Assembly: GCA_945787955.1 (NCBI GenBank)
Contig: CALZKF010000005.1
Coordinates: 1 to 55,600, forward strand
Origin: an uncultured Acidobacteriota bacterium
GTDB lineage: Bacteria > Acidobacteriota > Polarisedimenticolia > Polarisedimenticolales > Polarisedimenticolaceae
Direction: 5' to 3'
DNA length: 55,600 nt
Shown: positions 1,594 to 41,441 of the stretch, piece by piece
Position numbering within the stretch: position 1 is the stretch's first letter
Layout: every line of letters starts with the position of its first letter
The notes under the pieces: model-generated
What the model was told of the DNA's origin: nothing
The model's input: only the letters and a program-made list of their open reading frames with translations
Databases searched by the model: none
Position numbers and translations under genes: made by a program

Positions 1594-1848
1594 CTCCCGT
1601 CCTCCGGCCAACCCGATGAATACACTGGGAATAGGCCACAATCCCATTATCAAAAATTAACTATATCCCACCGCGTAGTCATCCGGAACACTGGAATGCT
1701 TTAAAAAAGCTTTGGATTGTCGAGTGAATCTGTCGATTGAGGATGGTTTAGGTCTACTGCAAATCCGACCATGTTCGTCATATTTGCGTACAATATTTCG
1801 CGAAAGGGATAGCAACTAACCCATGGGGATGGGACTGGAGTAAAGACC

Positions 1849-34112: not shown

Positions 34113-34288
34113 GATAGGCCGATCCCTCCCGTCCAACCGCCGGACGCCGCAATAGCGTAGCGATTCGGGCCGATTCCCGTCAAGCAGGCCGAGGCAGGGT
34201 ATGCTGCACGGCCGGGGTCGAATAAACTGTGCGCCAGTGGGTACCCTATGTTGCGCGGCATCCAAGGCCGGCTGGAAGGGACTCGCTG

Positions 34289-34903
34289 GTGGAGACGATT
34301 TTGGCGGTGGAAATATGCGAAAGCGATGCGGATCTGATCCGCAGGGCCCAGGACGGTGATCGGGCCGCTTTCGGCTTTTTGGTGGAGCGGTACATGAAGA
34401 GGGCCTATTACTCGGCCCTCGGATTGGTCGGCTCACCTGAAGACGCCAGGGACCTCTCCCAGGACGCATTCGCCAGGGCGTACCGTGCCAGACAGACCAT
34501 CGATCCCGACCGGCCGTTCTTCGCGTGGTTGTACCAGATCGTGCGCAGGCTCTGCTTCAACTTCAACCGGGACCGGCGCAGCCGCCGGGAAAAGCTCAGG
34601 GATGCGTCCCTGTGGCTGGCCGAGGAGGCGGAGGCTCGCGCCCCCGCTCCCGGTCCATCCCGGGTGCTGGAGAAGAGCGAGTTATGCCGGACCGTGCGCC
34701 AGGCGATCGAAGAGCTCCCCGAGCGGGAGCGGGAGGTCCTGGTGCTGAAGGAATTCGAAGGCCTGCGATACCGCGAGATAGCCGAACTGGTCGGCATACC
34801 GATCGGCACGGTGATGTCACGGCTGTATACGGCCAGGAAGCATCTGGCAGCGGCGCTGTCCCGAACGGTCACCGTAAGGCAGGGAGAGGAGAGCGGGCGA
34901 TGA
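34289..34903 (+). CDS. ECF-type sigma factor
   Basis: A 204-aa group IV sigma-70 factor that directs RNA polymerase to a small regulon. Region 2 runs through DLIRRAQDGDRAAFGFLVERY and the DLSQDAFARAYRA segment; region 4 through LPEREREVLVLKEFEGLRYREIA and an IPIGTVMSRLYTARKHL recognition helix. The open frame extends to 34229, but GTG 34289 with GGAAGGG 8 nt upstream gives the expected length. The stop overlaps the next gene (ATGA), a membrane protein that is likely its anti-sigma factor. Confidence 0.9.
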   Translation: METILAVEICESDADLIRRAQDGDRAAFGFLVERYMKRAYYSALGLVGSPEDARDLSQDAFARAYRARQTIDPDRPFFAWLYQIVRRLCFNFNRDRRSRREKLRDASLWLAEEAEARAPAPGPSRVLEKSELCRTVRQAIEELPEREREVLVLKEFEGLRYREIAELVGIPIGTVMSRLYTARKHLAAALSRTVTVRQGEESGR

Positions 34904-35349
34904 CGACTCGCGACGATTCCCGCCGATTGATGATGGCCGCTCTGGACGGGGAGATCAACCCGGACCAGCGCCGGCAACTGGACCGGCTGCTCGCAGACAA
35001 TCCGGACCTCCGGGACGAGTGGGAGCGGATGGGCCGGGTGAAGGAGGTGACGAGTTCCATGGCCTACCGCGAACCGCCGGAGGAGATCTGGCAAGAGTAC
35101 TGGGTTTCGGTTTACAACCGGTGCGAACGGGGTGTCGGCTGGCTGCTGATGACCCTGTCCACGGTGATCCTGCTGTCCTGGTCCGCCTGGCAGGTGATCG
35201 CGGCGATGTTCGCCGACTCCGCCATGCCCTTGTTTCTCAAACTAGCCGTGCTGGGAGTCGCAGTTGGCGCGATCATACTGCTGGTATCGGTGGCGCGGGA
35301 AAAATGGTTCGTCCGGCGCAAGGACCCGTATCGGGAGGTAATTCGATGA
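34900..35349 (+). CDS. Membrane anti-sigma factor candidate without zinc ligands
   Basis: A 149-aa protein whose N-terminal 60 residues have the helical anti-sigma layout (MMAALDGEINPDQRRQLDRL, then a NPDLRDEWERM segment) but lack the His-x3-Cys-x2-Cys zinc motif. Two membrane helices follow (about residues 79-103 and 110-132), then a short basic tail. It overlaps the sigma gene by 4 bp and the next gene by 4 bp. The position and layout make an anti-sigma role likely; the stimulus is unknown. Confidence 0.75.
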   Translation: MTTRDDSRRLMMAALDGEINPDQRRQLDRLLADNPDLRDEWERMGRVKEVTSSMAYREPPEEIWQEYWVSVYNRCERGVGWLLMTLSTVILLSWSAWQVIAAMFADSAMPLFLKLAVLGVAVGAIILLVSVAREKWFVRRKDPYREVIR

Positions 35350-35666
35350 TACTGACTCCTGCTTCTTCCGTCTCCGGCTATCGGGTGGCCAAGAGCTTCG
35401 GCCTGGTCAGGGGCAACACCATCCGGGCCAGGCATGTCGGCAAGGACATCATCGCTGCGTTCAAGAATATGGTGGGCGGCGAGATCGAGGAGTATACAAA
35501 GATGATGGCCGAGTCCCGGGAACAGGCCCTTGACCGGATGAAGGCGGAAGCCCGGAACATGGGCGCCGACGCTGTGCTGGACCTGCGGTTCAGCACCTCC
35601 TATATCATGGGGATGGCGGCGGAGATCCTGGTCTACGGCAACGCGGTGATTCTGGAGAAGGAGTAG
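35346..35666 (+). CDS. YbjQ/DUF74 family protein
   Basis: A 106-aa protein of the YbjQ family (putative heavy-metal-binding fold, forms pentamers in solved structures; physiological role unclear). Matching segments are VSGYRVAKSFGLVRGNTIRA near the start, KNMVGGEIEEYTKMM in the middle and GADAVLDLRFST before the end. The ATG overlaps the anti-sigma stop (ATGA), so this gene completes a three-gene sigma operon; it may be a target or co-regulator. It ends 5 bp before the stop of the convergent unknown gene. Confidence 0.88.
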   Translation: MILTPASSVSGYRVAKSFGLVRGNTIRARHVGKDIIAAFKNMVGGEIEEYTKMMAESREQALDRMKAEARNMGADAVLDLRFSTSYIMGMAAEILVYGNAVILEKE

Positions 35667-35671
35667 GACCG

Positions 35672-36193
35672 TCAGCTCCCGGCGATGCGCACCAGATGCT
35701 CCCGGACACCGCCCCAGGTTTCCGGGTCCACCGCCAGCAGGGCTGCCAGGTACAGGCCGACCCGTTCCCCGGGAAACCGCTCCTCCAGGGAGGCGACCGC
35801 CGCCGCAATCTTTTCATGTTCGGGAGTCGTGAGATCATAATCGTCATCGATCATCCCGGCGTCGTTGGGGATCTCAAGGGTGTCCAGGAATGCGACCAGG
35901 ATGTCCCGGCGCTCGCCCATGTGCAGCGACAGCAGGAGCGATGTGGCCAGGGAGTCGTCGGGGCGGACCCCCCGGGCCACGTAGCCGGTTCGCTTTTCGA
36001 CCGGGAGGCGATGAACCGCTGCCGGCCGAAACTTGAGATTGACGGCGATCGCCATGTTCGCTTCCAGTTTAGATTCCTTGTTCTCCCCGGCGTAGAGGTT
36101 CCGGGCCGCCTCGAGGCGATCGTCCAACTCCATGGCGGCCCACAGCCGGGACGGAGTCAGTCGGTCCAGGTCGATATTTTTCAGGGCGATCAT
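35672..36193 (-). CDS. Protein of unknown function (173 aa)
   Basis: Not recognised. Soluble, acidic, with no signal peptide or membrane segment. Notable stretches: LDRLTPSRLWAAMELDDRLEAARNLY at the start, then NLKFRPAAVHRLPVEKRTGYVARG, a run of leucines in TSLLLSLHMGERRDILVAFLD, and a helical end. The ATG has a GGAG element about 10 nt upstream. A single-gene unit between two plus-strand operons. Confidence 0.6.
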   Translation of the reverse strand: MIALKNIDLDRLTPSRLWAAMELDDRLEAARNLYAGENKESKLEANMAIAVNLKFRPAAVHRLPVEKRTGYVARGVRPDDSLATSLLLSLHMGERRDILVAFLDTLEIPNDAGMIDDDYDLTTPEHEKIAAAVASLEERFPGERVGLYLAALLAVDPETWGGVREHLVRIAGS

Positions 36194-36332
36194 GGCTGCC
36201 GAATCTCCAAGAATAACGGGAAGGCAGAAGTGTACAACGTCACGGGACGGGATGCAGCTTGCAAAATAGAGTGCGGTGGCTGTGGCCGATCGGTTTAAAC
36301 TGCCAAGGCAGGTATATTACGGATGAGGTGTC

Positions 36333-36737
36333 ATGACCCGATGTCCTGATTGCGGCGAGCCGCTGTTGATCTATGAGATGGACGGCGTGGAGACCGACCA
36401 CTGCATCGCCTGTGGAGGTACCTGGCTGGACGCCGGCGAACTGGAGCTGGTGGTGGAGAAAGCCGGTGTCGATCCTACGCCTATGGTGGAGGCGCTGGAG
36501 GGTGCGACCCTGGGCGGGAAAGGCTCCAGGCGGTGCCCCCGGTGCCGCAGGAAGATGTTCCTGACCCGCCTGGGCCCCGAGGACGGTGTTGAACTGGACA
36601 TCTGTGCGGCGGGCCACGGCATCTGGTTGGACCGGGGGGAGATGGAACAGGTGGCGAGCGCATTTTCGGAAGGCGCCGCTGGCGCCGTAGCATCGTATTT
36701 CGAGGAGCTCTATCCAACGGAGAGGAGAGAGGGATGA
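36333..36737 (+). CDS. Zinc-ribbon protein with two TFIIB-like zinc fingers
   Basis: A 134-aa protein with two zf-TFIIB-like units: Cys4-x2-Cys7 with Cys24-x2-Cys27 (MTRCPDCGEP, then HCIACGGTWLDAGEL), and a second one with CPRCRRKM, paired with DICAAGHGIWLDRGEM. The repeated W-L-D-x-G-E ending is typical of the family. The function of such proteins is not known; they bind zinc. It begins a run of six plus-strand genes with gaps of 36 bp or less, and overlaps lemA by 4 bp. TATATT at about 36312 may be the -10 box of the whole run. Confidence 0.85.
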   Translation: MTRCPDCGEPLLIYEMDGVETDHCIACGGTWLDAGELELVVEKAGVDPTPMVEALEGATLGGKGSRRCPRCRRKMFLTRLGPEDGVELDICAAGHGIWLDRGEMEQVASAFSEGAAGAVASYFEELYPTERREG

Positions 36738-37285
36738 CAGCGATTTATTTTTTGGTGGCCCTGGTGGTGATTGCCGCCATTCTGATGGGGATGTACAACG
36801 CTCTGGTCCGGGTTCGAAACCAGGTCCGGAACGCCTGGTCCCAGATCGACGTCCAGCTCAAGCGACGCCACGATCTGATCCCGAACCTGGTGGAGACGGT
36901 CAAGGGCTACGCCGGCCATGAGAAGCAGACTCTTGAAAACGTGGTCAAAGCCCGCAGCCAGGCTGTCTCAGCCCAGGGTGTGGAAGCACAGTCCATGGCG
37001 GAAGGCGCGCTGTCGTCCGCACTGGGCCGCCTGATGGTGGTAGTGGAGCAGTACCCCGACCTCAAGGCCAATCAGAACTTCCTCGCCCTGCAGGAGGAGC
37101 TGTCCTCAACGGAAAACAAGATCAGCTTCTCGCGGCAGCACTACAATGACAGTGCCATGGTGATGAACAACAAGGTCGAGACGTTCCCCTCCAACATCGT
37201 CGCCGGCATGTTCGGTTTCAAGAGAGAGCCGTTCTTCGAGGTCCAGGACGAGGTCGAGCGGGAGGCCCCCAAGGTCCAGTTCTAG
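36734..37285 (+). CDS. lemA: LemA family protein
   Basis: A 183-aa protein with one N-terminal membrane helix (residues about 4-20) and a helical-bundle domain. Characteristic segments are VRNAWSQIDVQLKRRHDLIPNL, a QYPDLKANQNFLALQEEL motif, STENKISFSRQHYND and the FPSNIVAGMFGF segment. LemA proteins are often encoded next to M48 (HtpX-like) proteases, as here, and are thought to act with them in the envelope. Its ATG overlaps the zinc-ribbon gene and it lies 12 bp before the protease. Confidence 0.95.
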   Translation: MTAIYFLVALVVIAAILMGMYNALVRVRNQVRNAWSQIDVQLKRRHDLIPNLVETVKGYAGHEKQTLENVVKARSQAVSAQGVEAQSMAEGALSSALGRLMVVVEQYPDLKANQNFLALQEELSSTENKISFSRQHYNDSAMVMNNKVETFPSNIVAGMFGFKREPFFEVQDEVEREAPKVQF

Positions 37286-37297
37286 TCCGGTTCCGCC

Positions 37298-38680
37298 ATG
37301 TGGGAAGCGATCCGTGCCAACAAGATCCGTTCCCGGGTGCTGATCAGCGCCATGGGCGGGGTGCTGGTCGGGCTGGGTGCGTTGTTCGGTGCGGTCTACC
37401 ACGCGGAAACCGGCGCCGCCGTCGGCGCCGTATTCGCCCTGGGGATCTGGGTTTTCCTGGTGCTGGTCGCTTTTGCCGGCGGCGACAAGATCCTGCTCAT
37501 GAGCGCCGGGGCCAAGAAGATCGAAAAGCAGGACGCTCCCCAGCTCTGGAACGTCGTTGAGGAGATGACCATTGCCTCCGGACTGGGCCGCATGCCGGAC
37601 GTCTACGTCATAGATGAAGATGCGCCCAACGCCTTCGCCGTCGGGCAGGACCCGTCCCGTGCAGCCGTGGCCGTGACCCGGGGGCTTCTGCGGCGCCTCA
37701 ACCGTGACGAGCTCCAGGGGGTGGTGGCCCATGAGATCGGCCATATCCGGAACCTGGACGTCCGCTTCATGACTCTGGCCTCGGTGATGCTGGGAAGCAT
37801 CGTTCTGCTGTCCGACGTTTTTCTCCGGTCGCTTTGGTTCGGGGGAGGCCGGCGCCGTGGACGGGGGGGGGAAGGCGGGCAGGCCCAGTTGATCCTGGTT
37901 GTGGTTTCCATCCTCCTGGCGATCCTGGCGCCTCTGCTGGCCCGGCTGTTGTACTTCGCATGTTCCCGGCAGCGGGAATACCTGGCGGACGCATCGGCGG
38001 CTCGATTCACCCGCTACCCCGAAGGACTGGCTTCCGCTCTTCAGAAGATCTCCCGGCCCACCGGTGGGAAGGTTGGCCGCAAAGGGGCCAACCGGGCCCT
38101 GGCGCCGATGTACATTGTCCGGCCCGAAGGTTTCCGTTCTCTCACCGGCATGTTCTCCACCCACCCTCCCCTTGAACGGAGAATCGGCATCCTGCGCTCC
38201 ATGGGTGGAGGCGCCGGGTACGCCGATTACGAGCAGGCCTGGCGACGGAACGGGGGAGACGGTGCACTGCTGGATGCACGCACCCTGTCCGGGGACCAAT
38301 CGGTGGCAGCCAGGCAGCCTACCCCTCCGCCTGCGTCCAAAAAGGAAGCGGACGAAACGGTCCGAGAAGTCCTGGATGTATTCGACCGTCTGGCCGGGTT
38401 CCTCATTCTCGGATGTGCATGCGGTGTCAGGATCAAGGTGCCGGAAGGGTACGGCAAGGCAACGGTGCCTTGCACCCGCTGCGGCCGGGAGAACCCGGTC
38501 CCGCAGGCTGCCGCCCCCGAACAGCGATCCGGGACGGCGACGTACCAGCGCACATCCAAGGGCTGGGAATCGTTGCGCTGCCCATGCGGCCGGAATGTTC
38601 AGATCAGTCCGGCGTTCCAGGGGGAGTTCAAAAAATGCCCGACCTGTGGCCGAAAAATCAAGATTATGCAACCGGCTTAA
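37298..38680 (+). CDS. M48 (HtpX-like) membrane protease with two C-terminal zinc ribbons
   Basis: A 460-aa protein. Residues 1-70 hold two membrane helices; the catalytic zinc motif is HEIGH (145-149), and SRQREYLADASA supplies the third ligand (Glu). Two further hydrophobic segments lie around 160-235. This matches HtpX, which clears damaged membrane proteins, but HtpX usually ends at about 290-330 aa. Here a linker leads to two rubredoxin-like zinc ribbons: Cys373-x-Cys375 with Cys392-x2-Cys395, and Cys428-x-Cys430 with Cys447-x2-Cys450. Such ribbons may bind substrate or sense zinc or redox state. It lies between lemA and an ECF sigma gene in the same operon. Confidence 0.9.
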   Translation: MWEAIRANKIRSRVLISAMGGVLVGLGALFGAVYHAETGAAVGAVFALGIWVFLVLVAFAGGDKILLMSAGAKKIEKQDAPQLWNVVEEMTIASGLGRMPDVYVIDEDAPNAFAVGQDPSRAAVAVTRGLLRRLNRDELQGVVAHEIGHIRNLDVRFMTLASVMLGSIVLLSDVFLRSLWFGGGRRRGRGGEGGQAQLILVVVSILLAILAPLLARLLYFACSRQREYLADASAARFTRYPEGLASALQKISRPTGGKVGRKGANRALAPMYIVRPEGFRSLTGMFSTHPPLERRIGILRSMGGGAGYADYEQAWRRNGGDGALLDARTLSGDQSVAARQPTPPPASKKEADETVREVLDVFDRLAGFLILGCACGVRIKVPEGYGKATVPCTRCGRENPVPQAAAPEQRSGTATYQRTSKGWESLRCPCGRNVQISPAFQGEFKKCPTCGRKIKIMQPA

Positions 38681-38716
38681 ACCGTCCGCAGCTCCGGGAC
38701 GTTGTACCTGAGTGTG

Positions 38717-39334
38717 ATGACCGCATTGACCCTGGCAATACCGTTGACCAACGATCGAGAACAGAACCTGCCACCGCAGCCTGACCGTGCGGATCCGGAA
38801 GAGCTCCGGTTGGTTAACCGGGCCCGCCAGGGTGACGTGCGGGCGTTCGAGGAACTGTACCGCCGGTTCGTTCCCCGGGTGTTCGGGCTATGCCGGCGGA
38901 TGGTGGGGGACGTCTCACTGGCCGAGGAACTGACCCAGGAAGTGTTCGTCAGGGTTTGGGAGAAATTCCCGCTGTTCCGCGGGCAGGGCCCGTTCGCTCC
39001 CTGGTTGCTCACCGTCGCCTCCCGGGTTGTGTTCAGCCACCGCAGGTCTTCGCGCCGTCGCGAGGACAAGATCCATGCGGTAGACGATCTGGCCCGGCTC
39101 GAACCGTATGCCGCCGATTTCGACCGCTCTGCCCCCAGGGCCGCCGACAGAGGCATCGACATCGAGGCTGCCCTGGCCCAGCTCCCGGAGAAGGCCAGGA
39201 AGGTTTTCATTCTCCACGACGTGGAGGGGTACAAGCATCGCGAGATCGCCCGGGTGACCGGCACGGCGGTTGGAACCAGCAAGGCACAGCTGCACCGTGC
39301 CCGCCGGATCTTGAGGGAGGTGCTGGCGAAATGA
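38717..39334 (+). CDS. ECF-type sigma factor
   Basis: A 205-aa group IV sigma factor. Region 2 is ELRLVNRARQGDVRAFEELY with EELTQEVFVRVWEKF (the W-E-K-F end is typical), and region 4 is LPEKARKVFILHDVEGYKHR followed by GTAVGTSKAQLHRARRIL. It begins 36 bp after the M48 protease gene. ATG 38717 is chosen although no good Shine-Dalgarno is seen; TTG 38702 and GTG 38714 are alternatives. Its stop overlaps the anti-sigma gene (ATGA). Confidence 0.9.
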   Translation: MTALTLAIPLTNDREQNLPPQPDRADPEELRLVNRARQGDVRAFEELYRRFVPRVFGLCRRMVGDVSLAEELTQEVFVRVWEKFPLFRGQGPFAPWLLTVASRVVFSHRRSSRRREDKIHAVDDLARLEPYAADFDRSAPRAADRGIDIEAALAQLPEKARKVFILHDVEGYKHREIARVTGTAVGTSKAQLHRARRILREVLAK

Positions 39335-39954
39335 ACTGCAACACGATCCTGGAACGGTTGGACGATTACATAGACGCGGAACTCGATACCCGCGAGCGCG
39401 ACCTGATTCGTAAGCACCTCGAGCACTGTGCCTCCTGCAGACGGGAGTATCGGCTCACGCTGCGGCTGCTGGAGCAGGCGGCGGCACTGCAGCGGGACGA
39501 GGAGCCTCCCCGGGATCTCTGGGAAGGAATCCGCGGCCGGGTCAAGCCGTCGTCGGCCGCAACCGGTTCCGGTTCACGACCCTGGGTCCTGGTCGCCGCC
39601 GTGGCGGCGCTGATCCTGGCCGTGATGGTCGGGCCCAGGCTGTTGGGCCCTGGCGGCAGGCCGGAGGGTGACCCGGCAACGGTTCCGGTGAGTTACCAGG
39701 AGGCCGATGAACGGTTCTGGGAGGTCCGGGAGCAGCTGCTGGCAGACCTTACGAGCGGCGAGGACCGCCTCGATCCGGAAACGGTGAGGGTGGTCAGGAA
39801 AAGTTTGAAGGTGATGGACCGCGCCGCGACGGAGATCCGCAAGGCGCTGGCGGCGGACCCGGGCAATTCCGGTCTGCGGCGGATGCTGCTGGCGTCGTAT
39901 CGGCACCAGGCGAAACTGTTGACCCGGGTCCGGGAATACCCGGAAGCGATCTAG
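39331..39954 (+). CDS. Zinc-binding (zf-HC2) membrane anti-sigma factor
   Basis: A 207-aa protein. The N-terminal anti-sigma domain has the ZAS zinc motif Cys3, His29-x3-Cys33-x2-Cys36. One membrane helix (about 86-104, VLVAAVAALILAVMVGPRLL) separates it from an extracytoplasmic helical domain with many charged residues, a likely sensor. The overlap with the sigma gene and the motif together make the role clear. ZAS anti-sigma factors often release sigma upon regulated proteolysis or thiol oxidation; the M48 protease two genes upstream is a natural candidate, which is inference. Confidence 0.9.
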   Translation: MNCNTILERLDDYIDAELDTRERDLIRKHLEHCASCRREYRLTLRLLEQAAALQRDEEPPRDLWEGIRGRVKPSSAATGSGSRPWVLVAAVAALILAVMVGPRLLGPGGRPEGDPATVPVSYQEADERFWEVREQLLADLTSGEDRLDPETVRVVRKSLKVMDRAATEIRKALAADPGNSGLRRMLLASYRHQAKLLTRVREYPEAI

Positions 39955-39966
39955 AGAGGTGACGTA

Positions 39967-40875
39967 ATGACGATCAGGATATTCAAGTCGGTAGGCAGCC
40001 TGTTCATTTTGGCGCTGGTTCTGGCGCTGGTCGCTTCGCCGGTCCTGGCGAAGCGTTCCGTGGACAAGTCCTGCGACGTGTCCGGTCCAGTTCGTGTCAG
40101 CGTGGAGTCGATGAGCGGCAAAATAATCGTTCTGGGCGGCGGAACCTCGGTGCAGGTCCGGGGGGAGATCGGCGACGACGTGGAAGGGGTGGATCTGGAC
40201 TGCGCCGGCGGCAAGGTGGTGATCTCCGTGTTGTACCCGGATCACATGAAGCGCATGAGCGCCGGCGAGGCCGACCTTGAGATCTCCGTGCCGGCATCCT
40301 CCTACGTCCGTGTGGAAGGCATGTCCACCAACCAGACGATCAAGGGGGTGACCGGCCGGGTAGTGCTGGAGGCGATGAGCGGAGACCTGGTGGTCGAAGG
40401 TCATCCTGCGGATGTCCGTGCCGAGACCATGTCGGGAGACATCCGTATCAGCGCCGGTGCAGGGAAGGTCACGGCCGAGGCGGCAAGCGGAAATATCACC
40501 ATCGTGGGCGTATCCGGCGTGGTTCGGGCCGAGACCATGAGCGGGAATATCGAAGTTGAGGCCTCCAACCTGGAAGAGGCCGACCTGGCCACCGTGGCCG
40601 GGTCGGTGCAATGCCGCTGTGATCTGTCTCCCGGAGGCAGATTATCGGCGGAAGCGGTCAACGGCAGTGTGACCCTGGATCTGCAGGACAGCGTAAACGC
40701 CACCTTCAACCTCGAAACCTTCAACGGCTCCATCGAGTCGAGCCTTGGCGGCGTGGAACGCCGCCCGAAAAAGGACGGCCGCTACGGGCCGGGTCGAAGC
40801 CTGGAGTTCACGCTGGGTTCCGGCGAAGGTTCGGTGAACGTGTCCGTGTTCAACGGCAAGTGCGTTGTGAAATGA
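39967..40875 (+). CDS. Exported DUF4097 (adhesin-like beta-helix) protein
   Basis: A 302-aa protein with a signal peptide (about residues 10-28, ending in VLA-K). The body is a repetitive beta-solenoid in which units of about 20 residues recur with the pattern E-x-M-S-G-x-I/L (VESMSGKI, LEAMSGDL, AETMSGDI, AEAASGNI, AETMSGNI, AEAVNGSV, LETFNGSI). This matches DUF4097, often encoded downstream of sigma/anti-sigma pairs; its function is unknown. It closes the six-gene run and ends 1 bp before the convergent RsbW-like gene. Confidence 0.88.
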   Translation: MTIRIFKSVGSLFILALVLALVASPVLAKRSVDKSCDVSGPVRVSVESMSGKIIVLGGGTSVQVRGEIGDDVEGVDLDCAGGKVVISVLYPDHMKRMSAGEADLEISVPASSYVRVEGMSTNQTIKGVTGRVVLEAMSGDLVVEGHPADVRAETMSGDIRISAGAGKVTAEAASGNITIVGVSGVVRAETMSGNIEVEASNLEEADLATVAGSVQCRCDLSPGGRLSAEAVNGSVTLDLQDSVNATFNLETFNGSIESSLGGVERRPKKDGRYGPGRSLEFTLGSGEGSVNVSVFNGKCVVK

Positions 40876-40876
40876 C

Positions 40877-41323
40877 TCAGACCGGCGGCGCCTTGTACAG
40901 CAACAGCTCGGTGCCGCCCTTCCTGTATTCCATCTCGTCCACCAGATGCCGCATCATGAAAATGCCGCGGCCGTGGTGCAGCAGCCGGCGGTCCTCGCCT
41001 CGGGGATCGGGGACCCCATGCGGATCGAAACCGCCGCCCTCGTCCCTGATGGCGATCCACAGTCCCTGTTCCCGGCTGCCGTAGCAGCGCAGGTAGACCG
41101 ATTTCGAAGCGATGGCCCGGTTGCCGTGAAGCGCCGCATTAGCCAACCCTTCCCGCAAGACTATTTCCAGATCGGACATCACATCTTGCCGCGAGCAGAC
41201 ACCGCCAAGGAGCTCCATGGTCTCTTGCACGGCCCGGTTAACGGCTTCCCGGCTGCTGCCGAGGTGGGTCCGGTGGCGCAGGGAGAACCGGCTGCGGTTG
41301 AACGGCTGTCTGTCCTTCGCCAC
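40877..41323 (-). CDS. RsbW/SpoIIAB-like ATP-binding (anti-sigma kinase-type) protein
   Basis: A 148-aa stand-alone GHKL ATPase domain. The N-box is LREGLANAALHGN, the G1 box IRDEGGGFDP, and the G2-like region HHGRGIFMMRHLVDEMEY. These are hallmarks of serine kinases that phosphorylate anti-anti-sigma factors in partner-switching systems. No STAS-domain partner is encoded in the window. The start is GTG 41323 with AAGGGAGGA close upstream; GTG 41341 is the alternative. It is a single-gene unit, divergent from the EVE gene. Confidence 0.88.
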   Translation of the reverse strand: MAKDRQPFNRSRFSLRHRTHLGSSREAVNRAVQETMELLGGVCSRQDVMSDLEIVLREGLANAALHGNRAIASKSVYLRCYGSREQGLWIAIRDEGGGFDPHGVPDPRGEDRRLLHHGRGIFMMRHLVDEMEYRKGGTELLLYKAPPV

Positions 41324-41441
41324 GAATCCTCCCTTGCCCACAGCGCGGAAGGATAATGCAGAATCACCCTCTCAGGCTACAATCGTCGGTCCGGTTGGAG
41401 AAAATGAAGTGTAATCCGGCTTATTGCCGAGAGGAAACAGG

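Follow-up and report, generated by a model that had tools for sequence, protein, structure and literature searches.

The active site and the termini of the protease HtpX are cytosolic. To our knowledge, both the choice of substrates by HtpX-like proteases and the function of LemA are poorly understood; the two form a known pair, and at most of the tail-less LemA-linked loci examined here the LemA gene lies directly 5' of the M48 protease gene. Another known arrangement joins an ECF sigma factor, a zf-HC2 anti-sigma factor (ZAS) and a DUF4097 protein. The original prediction for the window (the whole stretch of 55,600 nucleotides that was analyzed) recognized both pairings, correctly in the light of our searches, and merged them into a single zinc-rich stress operon headed by a zinc-ribbon protein. 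The source contig is part of a 3.83-Mb Acidobacteriota genome (87% complete), the congeneric sister of which is Candidatus Polarisedimenticola svalbardensis.

We confirmed by gene calls, Pfam searches and alignment that six genes lie on the + strand as predicted, with ribbon cysteines in the protease, ATGA overlaps between the ZnR and LemA genes (36734–36737) and between the sigma and anti-sigma genes (39331–39334), and gaps of 12 bp (LemA–M48), 36 bp (M48–sigma) and 12 bp (anti-sigma–DUF4097). The sister species carries all six genes in unchanged order (locus L031; M48 identity 88%), and its M48–sigma gap is likewise 36 bp long. Because the order is kept in this second species, it is no assembly accident.

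The first gene (36333–36737, +) encodes ZnR, a soluble protein of 134 aa that combines two TFIIB-type zinc ribbons (PF13453) with a C-terminal helix. Its assignment to PF13453 follows from the score (83.2 bits against a cut-off of 22, E = 8e-24, with two stretches both above the cut-off) and from the four metal ligands in each ribbon; in the source genome the family is confined to ZnR. Hydropathy gave no membrane segment, the AF2 model has a pLDDT of 85.5 and a pTM of 0.77, and C7, C24, W31, D33, E36, C68, C71, C91, G96 and E103 are invariant in the alignment. The nearest relative of solved structure is ZifS of Thermus thermophilus (TTHA0897, PDB 8yoz), with which ZnR shares the TFIIB-type ribbon at 40% identity across 57 columns; unlike ZifS, ZnR has two ribbons, an added C-terminal helix and a tie to an M48 protease. 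The second gene (36734–37285, +) encodes a LemA protein of 183 aa (PF04011, 217.8 bits against 26.2, E = 7e-65) with a membrane helix at residues 1–19, an Arg-rich flank and a helical domain; identity across 22 loci is 54–90%. Hydropathy and charge suggest that the helical domain is cytosolic. A defence function was considered and set aside, PADLOC having given nothing except a marginal LemA–ZorA match.

The third gene (37298–38680, +) encodes a predicted membrane protease of 460 aa of the M48B/HtpX-like type with a C-terminal tandem zinc-ribbon tail (Peptidase_M48, 110.9 bits against 20.3). Its HExxH motif reads HEIGH (145–149), the downstream Glu ligand E227 lies within SRQREYLAD, and S223, R224, R226, E227 and D231 are invariant among 32 homologues. 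Hydropathy peaks at 14–32, 41–59, 153–181 and 196–214, before and after HExxH, and helices are also present there in the AF2 model (pLDDT 86.5, pTM 0.86), in which the ribbons are folded (pLDDT about 82–96). Foldseek matched the protease part to ZMPSTE24, Ste24p and HtpX; the best NCBIfam match, PRK04897, scored 298.1 bits, below the equivalog cut-off of 355, and we therefore call the protein HtpX-like rather than an HtpX equivalog. With the HtpX/M48B zinc proteases (PRK04897 group; 3cqb, ZMPSTE24 4aw6, Ste24p 4il3) it shares HExxH, the Glu in SRxREYLAD and four hydrophobic helices, whereas it is about 160 residues longer and has the tandem ribbon tail in addition. The two extra ribbons that had been predicted are borne out: cysteines 373, 375, 392, 395 and 428, 430, 447, 450 are all invariant in 21 two-ribbon homologues. 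The first three genes thus form a variant of the LemA–HtpX pairing, with LemA directly 5' of M48 as usual but with ZnR upstream and a ribbon tail added.

The remaining genes encode the sigma module. The ECF sigma factor (38717–39334, +; 205 aa) has regions 2 and 4 above their cut-offs (Sigma70_r2, 63.6 bits against 24; r4_2, 66.2 against 25.7) and matches TIGR02937 (89.4 bits against 42.9); ATG at 38717 is the best start, an in-frame TTG also occurring at 38702, and the source genome has about 20 ECF paralogues. The anti-sigma gene (39331–39954, +) encodes 207 aa with an N-terminal zinc motif (Cys3-His29-x3-Cys33-x2-Cys36), a membrane helix at 86–104 and an extracytoplasmic C-terminal domain; the zf-HC2 domain (PF13490, 39.2 bits against 22.2, E = 7e-10) with its zinc motif, the helix and the adjoining sigma gene assign it to the ZAS family. 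Gene order points to the predicted pairing of the sigma with this anti-sigma. The last gene (39967–40875, +) encodes a DUF4097 'toastrack' protein of 302 aa with an N-terminal signal/anchor helix (PF13349, 41.2 bits against 22.9, E = 1.6e-10). Convergent with it lies an RsbW/SpoIIAB-like HATPase_c_2 gene (40877–41341, –), which adjoins the DUF4097 gene in the sister species too. On the other side, 1.4 kb upstream of ZnR, a second ECF sigma gene (34229–34903) keeps its place in the sister species; behind it in the window come a putative anti-sigma-like frame and a gene of the YbjQ family (35343–35666; PF01906, annotated as putative heavy-metal-binding).

We compared the neighbourhoods of relatives fetched with the M48 protein, scoring them by profiles of the six window proteins; tailed loci were found via M48 sequence patterns, by which distant variants may be missed. 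ZnR, LemA and M48 recur as closely spaced neighbours in Acidobacteriota, Planctomycetota (Phycisphaerae, Brocadiaceae), Omnitrophota, Hydrogenedentota and Krumholzibacteriota, the Planctomycetota counts deriving from the M48-relative fetch alone; the three genes constitute a separate three-gene cassette in at least five phyla. Among 26 loci, the sigma–ZAS–DUF4097 trio stands behind a tailed M48 only in the window and the sister species, and the six-gene order is not conserved beyond them. Conversely, when ZAS and DUF4097 were used as queries in 41 relatives and in the fetched regions, the trio was found adjacent and on a single strand, with the same order and domains, at 12 loci spread over 11 further genomes of the class, and none of those 12 had M48, LemA or ZnR beside it. 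The window trio differs from these modules in sitting behind an M48 cassette, which it does only in the genus of the window. In a genome of the same family (G002) the cassette and the trio lie on different contigs (C12 and C106); genome G004 carries its trio at 3.48 Mb and its tail-less HtpX at 5.70 Mb. The claim of a single unit therefore stands within the genus and fails outside it, where the two halves are independent, as the original prediction had named as grounds for its own rejection; neither module needs the other for basic function. We conclude with high confidence that the interval consists of two independent old modules that came to lie side by side in the Polarisedimenticola lineage. 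Outside the genus, no other recurrent gene family was found beside the cassette in the tailed M48 neighbourhoods. An ECF linkage was rejected as a recurrent theme, since besides the genus it appeared just at L043 and, in divergent orientation, at L040, which is too few. At L043 (9566–11347) an ECF sigma gene follows 182 bp downstream of the cassette, and next comes an anti-sigma-like protein with an apparent heavy-metal-associated (HMA-like) domain at its end; the arrangement is unlike the window trio.

We performed an ungapped motif search of the trio upstream regions of 12 relatives, excluding the window and the sister species, and found the motif TTCCAACC-(about 14)-GGCA (in short form, AACC-N14-GGC[A/G]), whose EM likelihood score was 96.8, compared with 69–81 for six shuffled sets. 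A two-block matrix built from eight clear sites was then used for scanning. In L031, the M48–sigma junction carries AAACC-N14-GGCGTTGTA, rank 1 of 34714 positions, and in the window the site TTAAACC-N14-GACGTTGTA (38675–38707, +), which covers the M48 stop codon and the M48–sigma gap, is rank 47 of 111136 positions, its score of 6.4 being modest beside the 20–31 of the training sites. Upstream of ZnR, where an ECF-type promoter had been anticipated, neither a canonical ECF promoter (GGAAC...CGTC type) nor the trio motif was found, the best site in the matrix scan there ranking 1012. The recurrence of the motif in the gap of both species, together with its absence upstream of ZnR, makes it probable that the trio has a promoter of its own, for which the gap site is the candidate. 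The genome-wide scan for the motif was uninformative, with 36 matches against 20 in the reversed control and many of them not before genes. The top match in the window (1762–1794; score 15.6, rank 1) precedes a multihaem cytochrome-like gene (1849–2871) by 54 bp. Upstream of ZnR, a divergent gene of 173 aa with no Pfam or NCBIfam match (35672–36193, –) is separated from it by a 140-bp intergenic region, part of which (a block at about 36195–36275) is conserved in the sister species. This block was rejected as an ECF promoter of ZnR on account of unsuitable spacing; lying within a divergent intergenic region, it may serve the other gene instead.

These results bear on the circuit of the original prediction, in which the M48 ribbons sense zinc, thiol or unfolded-protein stress, the protease degrades ZAS and the freed sigma induces all six genes. 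The order and the 36-bp gap conserved in two congeneric species speak for it, and by hydropathy the M48 domain, the ribbons and the ZAS N-terminus are all probably cytosolic, so that protease and ZAS could face the same compartment. However, the modules are apart in all relatives outside the genus, and the linkage of protease to sigma and anti-sigma genes across relatives that regulated anti-sigma proteolysis would lead one to expect is absent there; the candidate promoter in the gap, with its sigma-type motif missing upstream of ZnR, speaks against the induction of one six-gene operon by this sigma. Moreover, the zinc theme is loose: the anti-sigma of the window has its zinc motif, but the ligands are not conserved across the class, the Cys3-equivalent being absent from L159 and L161 and Cys36 and His29 being replaced in L160. 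The clearing of ZAS by M48 is thus unsupported, and we regard the circuit as very improbable. In a looser coupling, the trio would have its own promoter, envelope stress would raise both modules by way of read-through from the cassette or of their common locus, and the junction would be selected without any proteolytic circuit. Such a coupling would accord with the junction and gap length kept by both species and with the lack of a terminator-like site on the + strand within the M48–sigma gap. It is nevertheless rather doubtful, since a single genus is concerned and two close genomes may share an ancestral neighbourhood.

The association of ZnR with the tailed protease is strict. ZnR was located just upstream at 26/26 distinct tailed M48 loci for which 1 kb or more of upstream sequence was available, and at none of the 43 tail-less ones (0/33 LemA-linked and 0/10 LemA-less; one with <1 kb upstream), which upholds the earlier view that the zinc protein belongs with LemA–M48. 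When 247 Acidobacteriota genomes were scanned with the ZnR profile, it scored 174, 154 and 136 bits in G000, G008 and G013, which are exactly the genomes with a tailed M48, and at most 92 bits elsewhere. The tailed M48 proteins, from all five phyla, form a single clade in the tree (support 100/100), within which L063 (Acidobacteriota) is sister to L054 (Krumholzibacteriota) at 99/98; this grouping of different phyla suggests that the cassette spread horizontally. ZnR and the tail arose once together, and the linkage therefore counts as one evolutionary event long kept rather than repeated gain. In the L048 genome, LemA has left for a different contig and ZnR remains 21 bp from M48, so ZnR follows the tailed protease rather than LemA. 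Two further PF13453 proteins were observed near or within possible protease contexts. At L180 (2063–3529; G153:C101), an 84-aa single-ribbon PF13453-type gene lies 343 bp downstream of a tail-less HtpX, near Hsp20 and Lon-like genes, and is possibly an independent PF13453–HtpX link; at L193 (735–1415; G152:C80), a PF13453-like protein with two ribbons continues into a hydrophobic segment and may be a fusion with a membrane protease such as rhomboid.

The ribbons might have no role beyond zinc storage or the stabilization or anchoring of the protein, with ZnR hitch-hiking in a conserved operon. Operons may indeed persist for expression reasons, tail length is variable among tailed M48s, and at five loci the tail has a single ribbon, ZnR being still kept there; yet ZnR stays by M48 where LemA has gone, and the tail cysteines are invariant, which leaves this explanation unlikely. 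Equally unlikely, in our view, is that ZnR is a nucleic-acid or RNA polymerase regulator of the cassette and no partner of the tail. The name of the TFIIB-type family and weak Rpb9-like fold matches of ZnR are in its favor, whereas its best structural relative is the small protein ZifS, its invariant motifs are acidic (W-x-D-x-G-E) rather than basic surfaces, and its linkage tracks the protease tail and not merely the LemA–M48 operon.

We also searched for relatives of the tail itself. Profile searches gave weak ribbon matches only, LysW being among the best, and no sequence match to TMEM55B. The best additional Foldseek match was nonetheless the tandem RING-like domain of TMEM55B, which is weak (prob 0.96–0.97, E 0.15–0.17, rmsd about 11.6 Å), the rmsd reflecting a different mutual position of the two ribbons. 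The tandem unit of TMEM55B, called unique among known proteins by its authors, serves as an adaptor platform, binds a peptide motif and has LysW as another fold neighbour (PMC12393467). TMEM55B (PIP4P1; 8oqh/9qm9) is, like M48, a membrane protein with four-Cys ribbons in tandem, cytosolic in TMEM55B and probably so in M48, and with a LysW-like ribbon; unlike M48, it is eukaryotic, is no protease and arranges its ribbons differently. We treat it as a functional analogy and not as kin; weak as it is, the resemblance counts in favor of a docking role. Ribbons also occur at the opposite protein end: LemA-linked HtpX proteins of Acidobacteriota at L067, L068, L069, L085, L091, L096 and L097 have an N-terminal CxxC...CxxC zinc ribbon, probably likewise on the cytosolic side, but neither a C-terminal tail nor a ZnR gene. 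This lineage indicates that zinc ribbons were added to LemA-linked HtpX more than once.

The reading that we prefer, and hold to be reasonably likely as a whole, is that of two modules, a cassette for membrane quality control with ZnR as adaptor and a trio with its own switch. The cassette would most likely be an inner-membrane protein quality-control unit, in which the predicted HtpX-like protease would cut on the cytosolic face, LemA would be its membrane-anchored partner, the tandem zinc-ribbon tail would provide a docking platform and ZnR would be a cytosolic adaptor or regulator working with that tail; the trio would be an autoregulated switch for envelope stress, of the ordinary kind, driven from its own promoter within the 36-bp gap. 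With the LemA domain, the HtpX active site and termini, and ZnR all placed in the cytosol, the cassette would bring all of its zinc elements together at the cytosolic face. The adaptor mechanism itself is put forward tentatively, at somewhat less than even confidence. More speculative still is the extension that ZnR and the tail form a zinc-based adaptor system, carried between phyla as a three-gene cassette, through which ZnR would supply the tail of the HtpX-like enzyme with substrates from the cytosol or the membrane, or with a stress signal.

An attractive 'integrated stress operon' from one genome thus proved to be a junction of two separate modules, and the lasting point is the cassette with its strict ZnR–tail linkage. 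We found no description of this cassette in the open-access literature. Through the strict tie of ZnR to the tail, the cassette supplies a specific and testable candidate for a partner dedicated to HtpX and, if the adaptor system is real, it would represent a mode of substrate delivery for which we found no description in HtpX.
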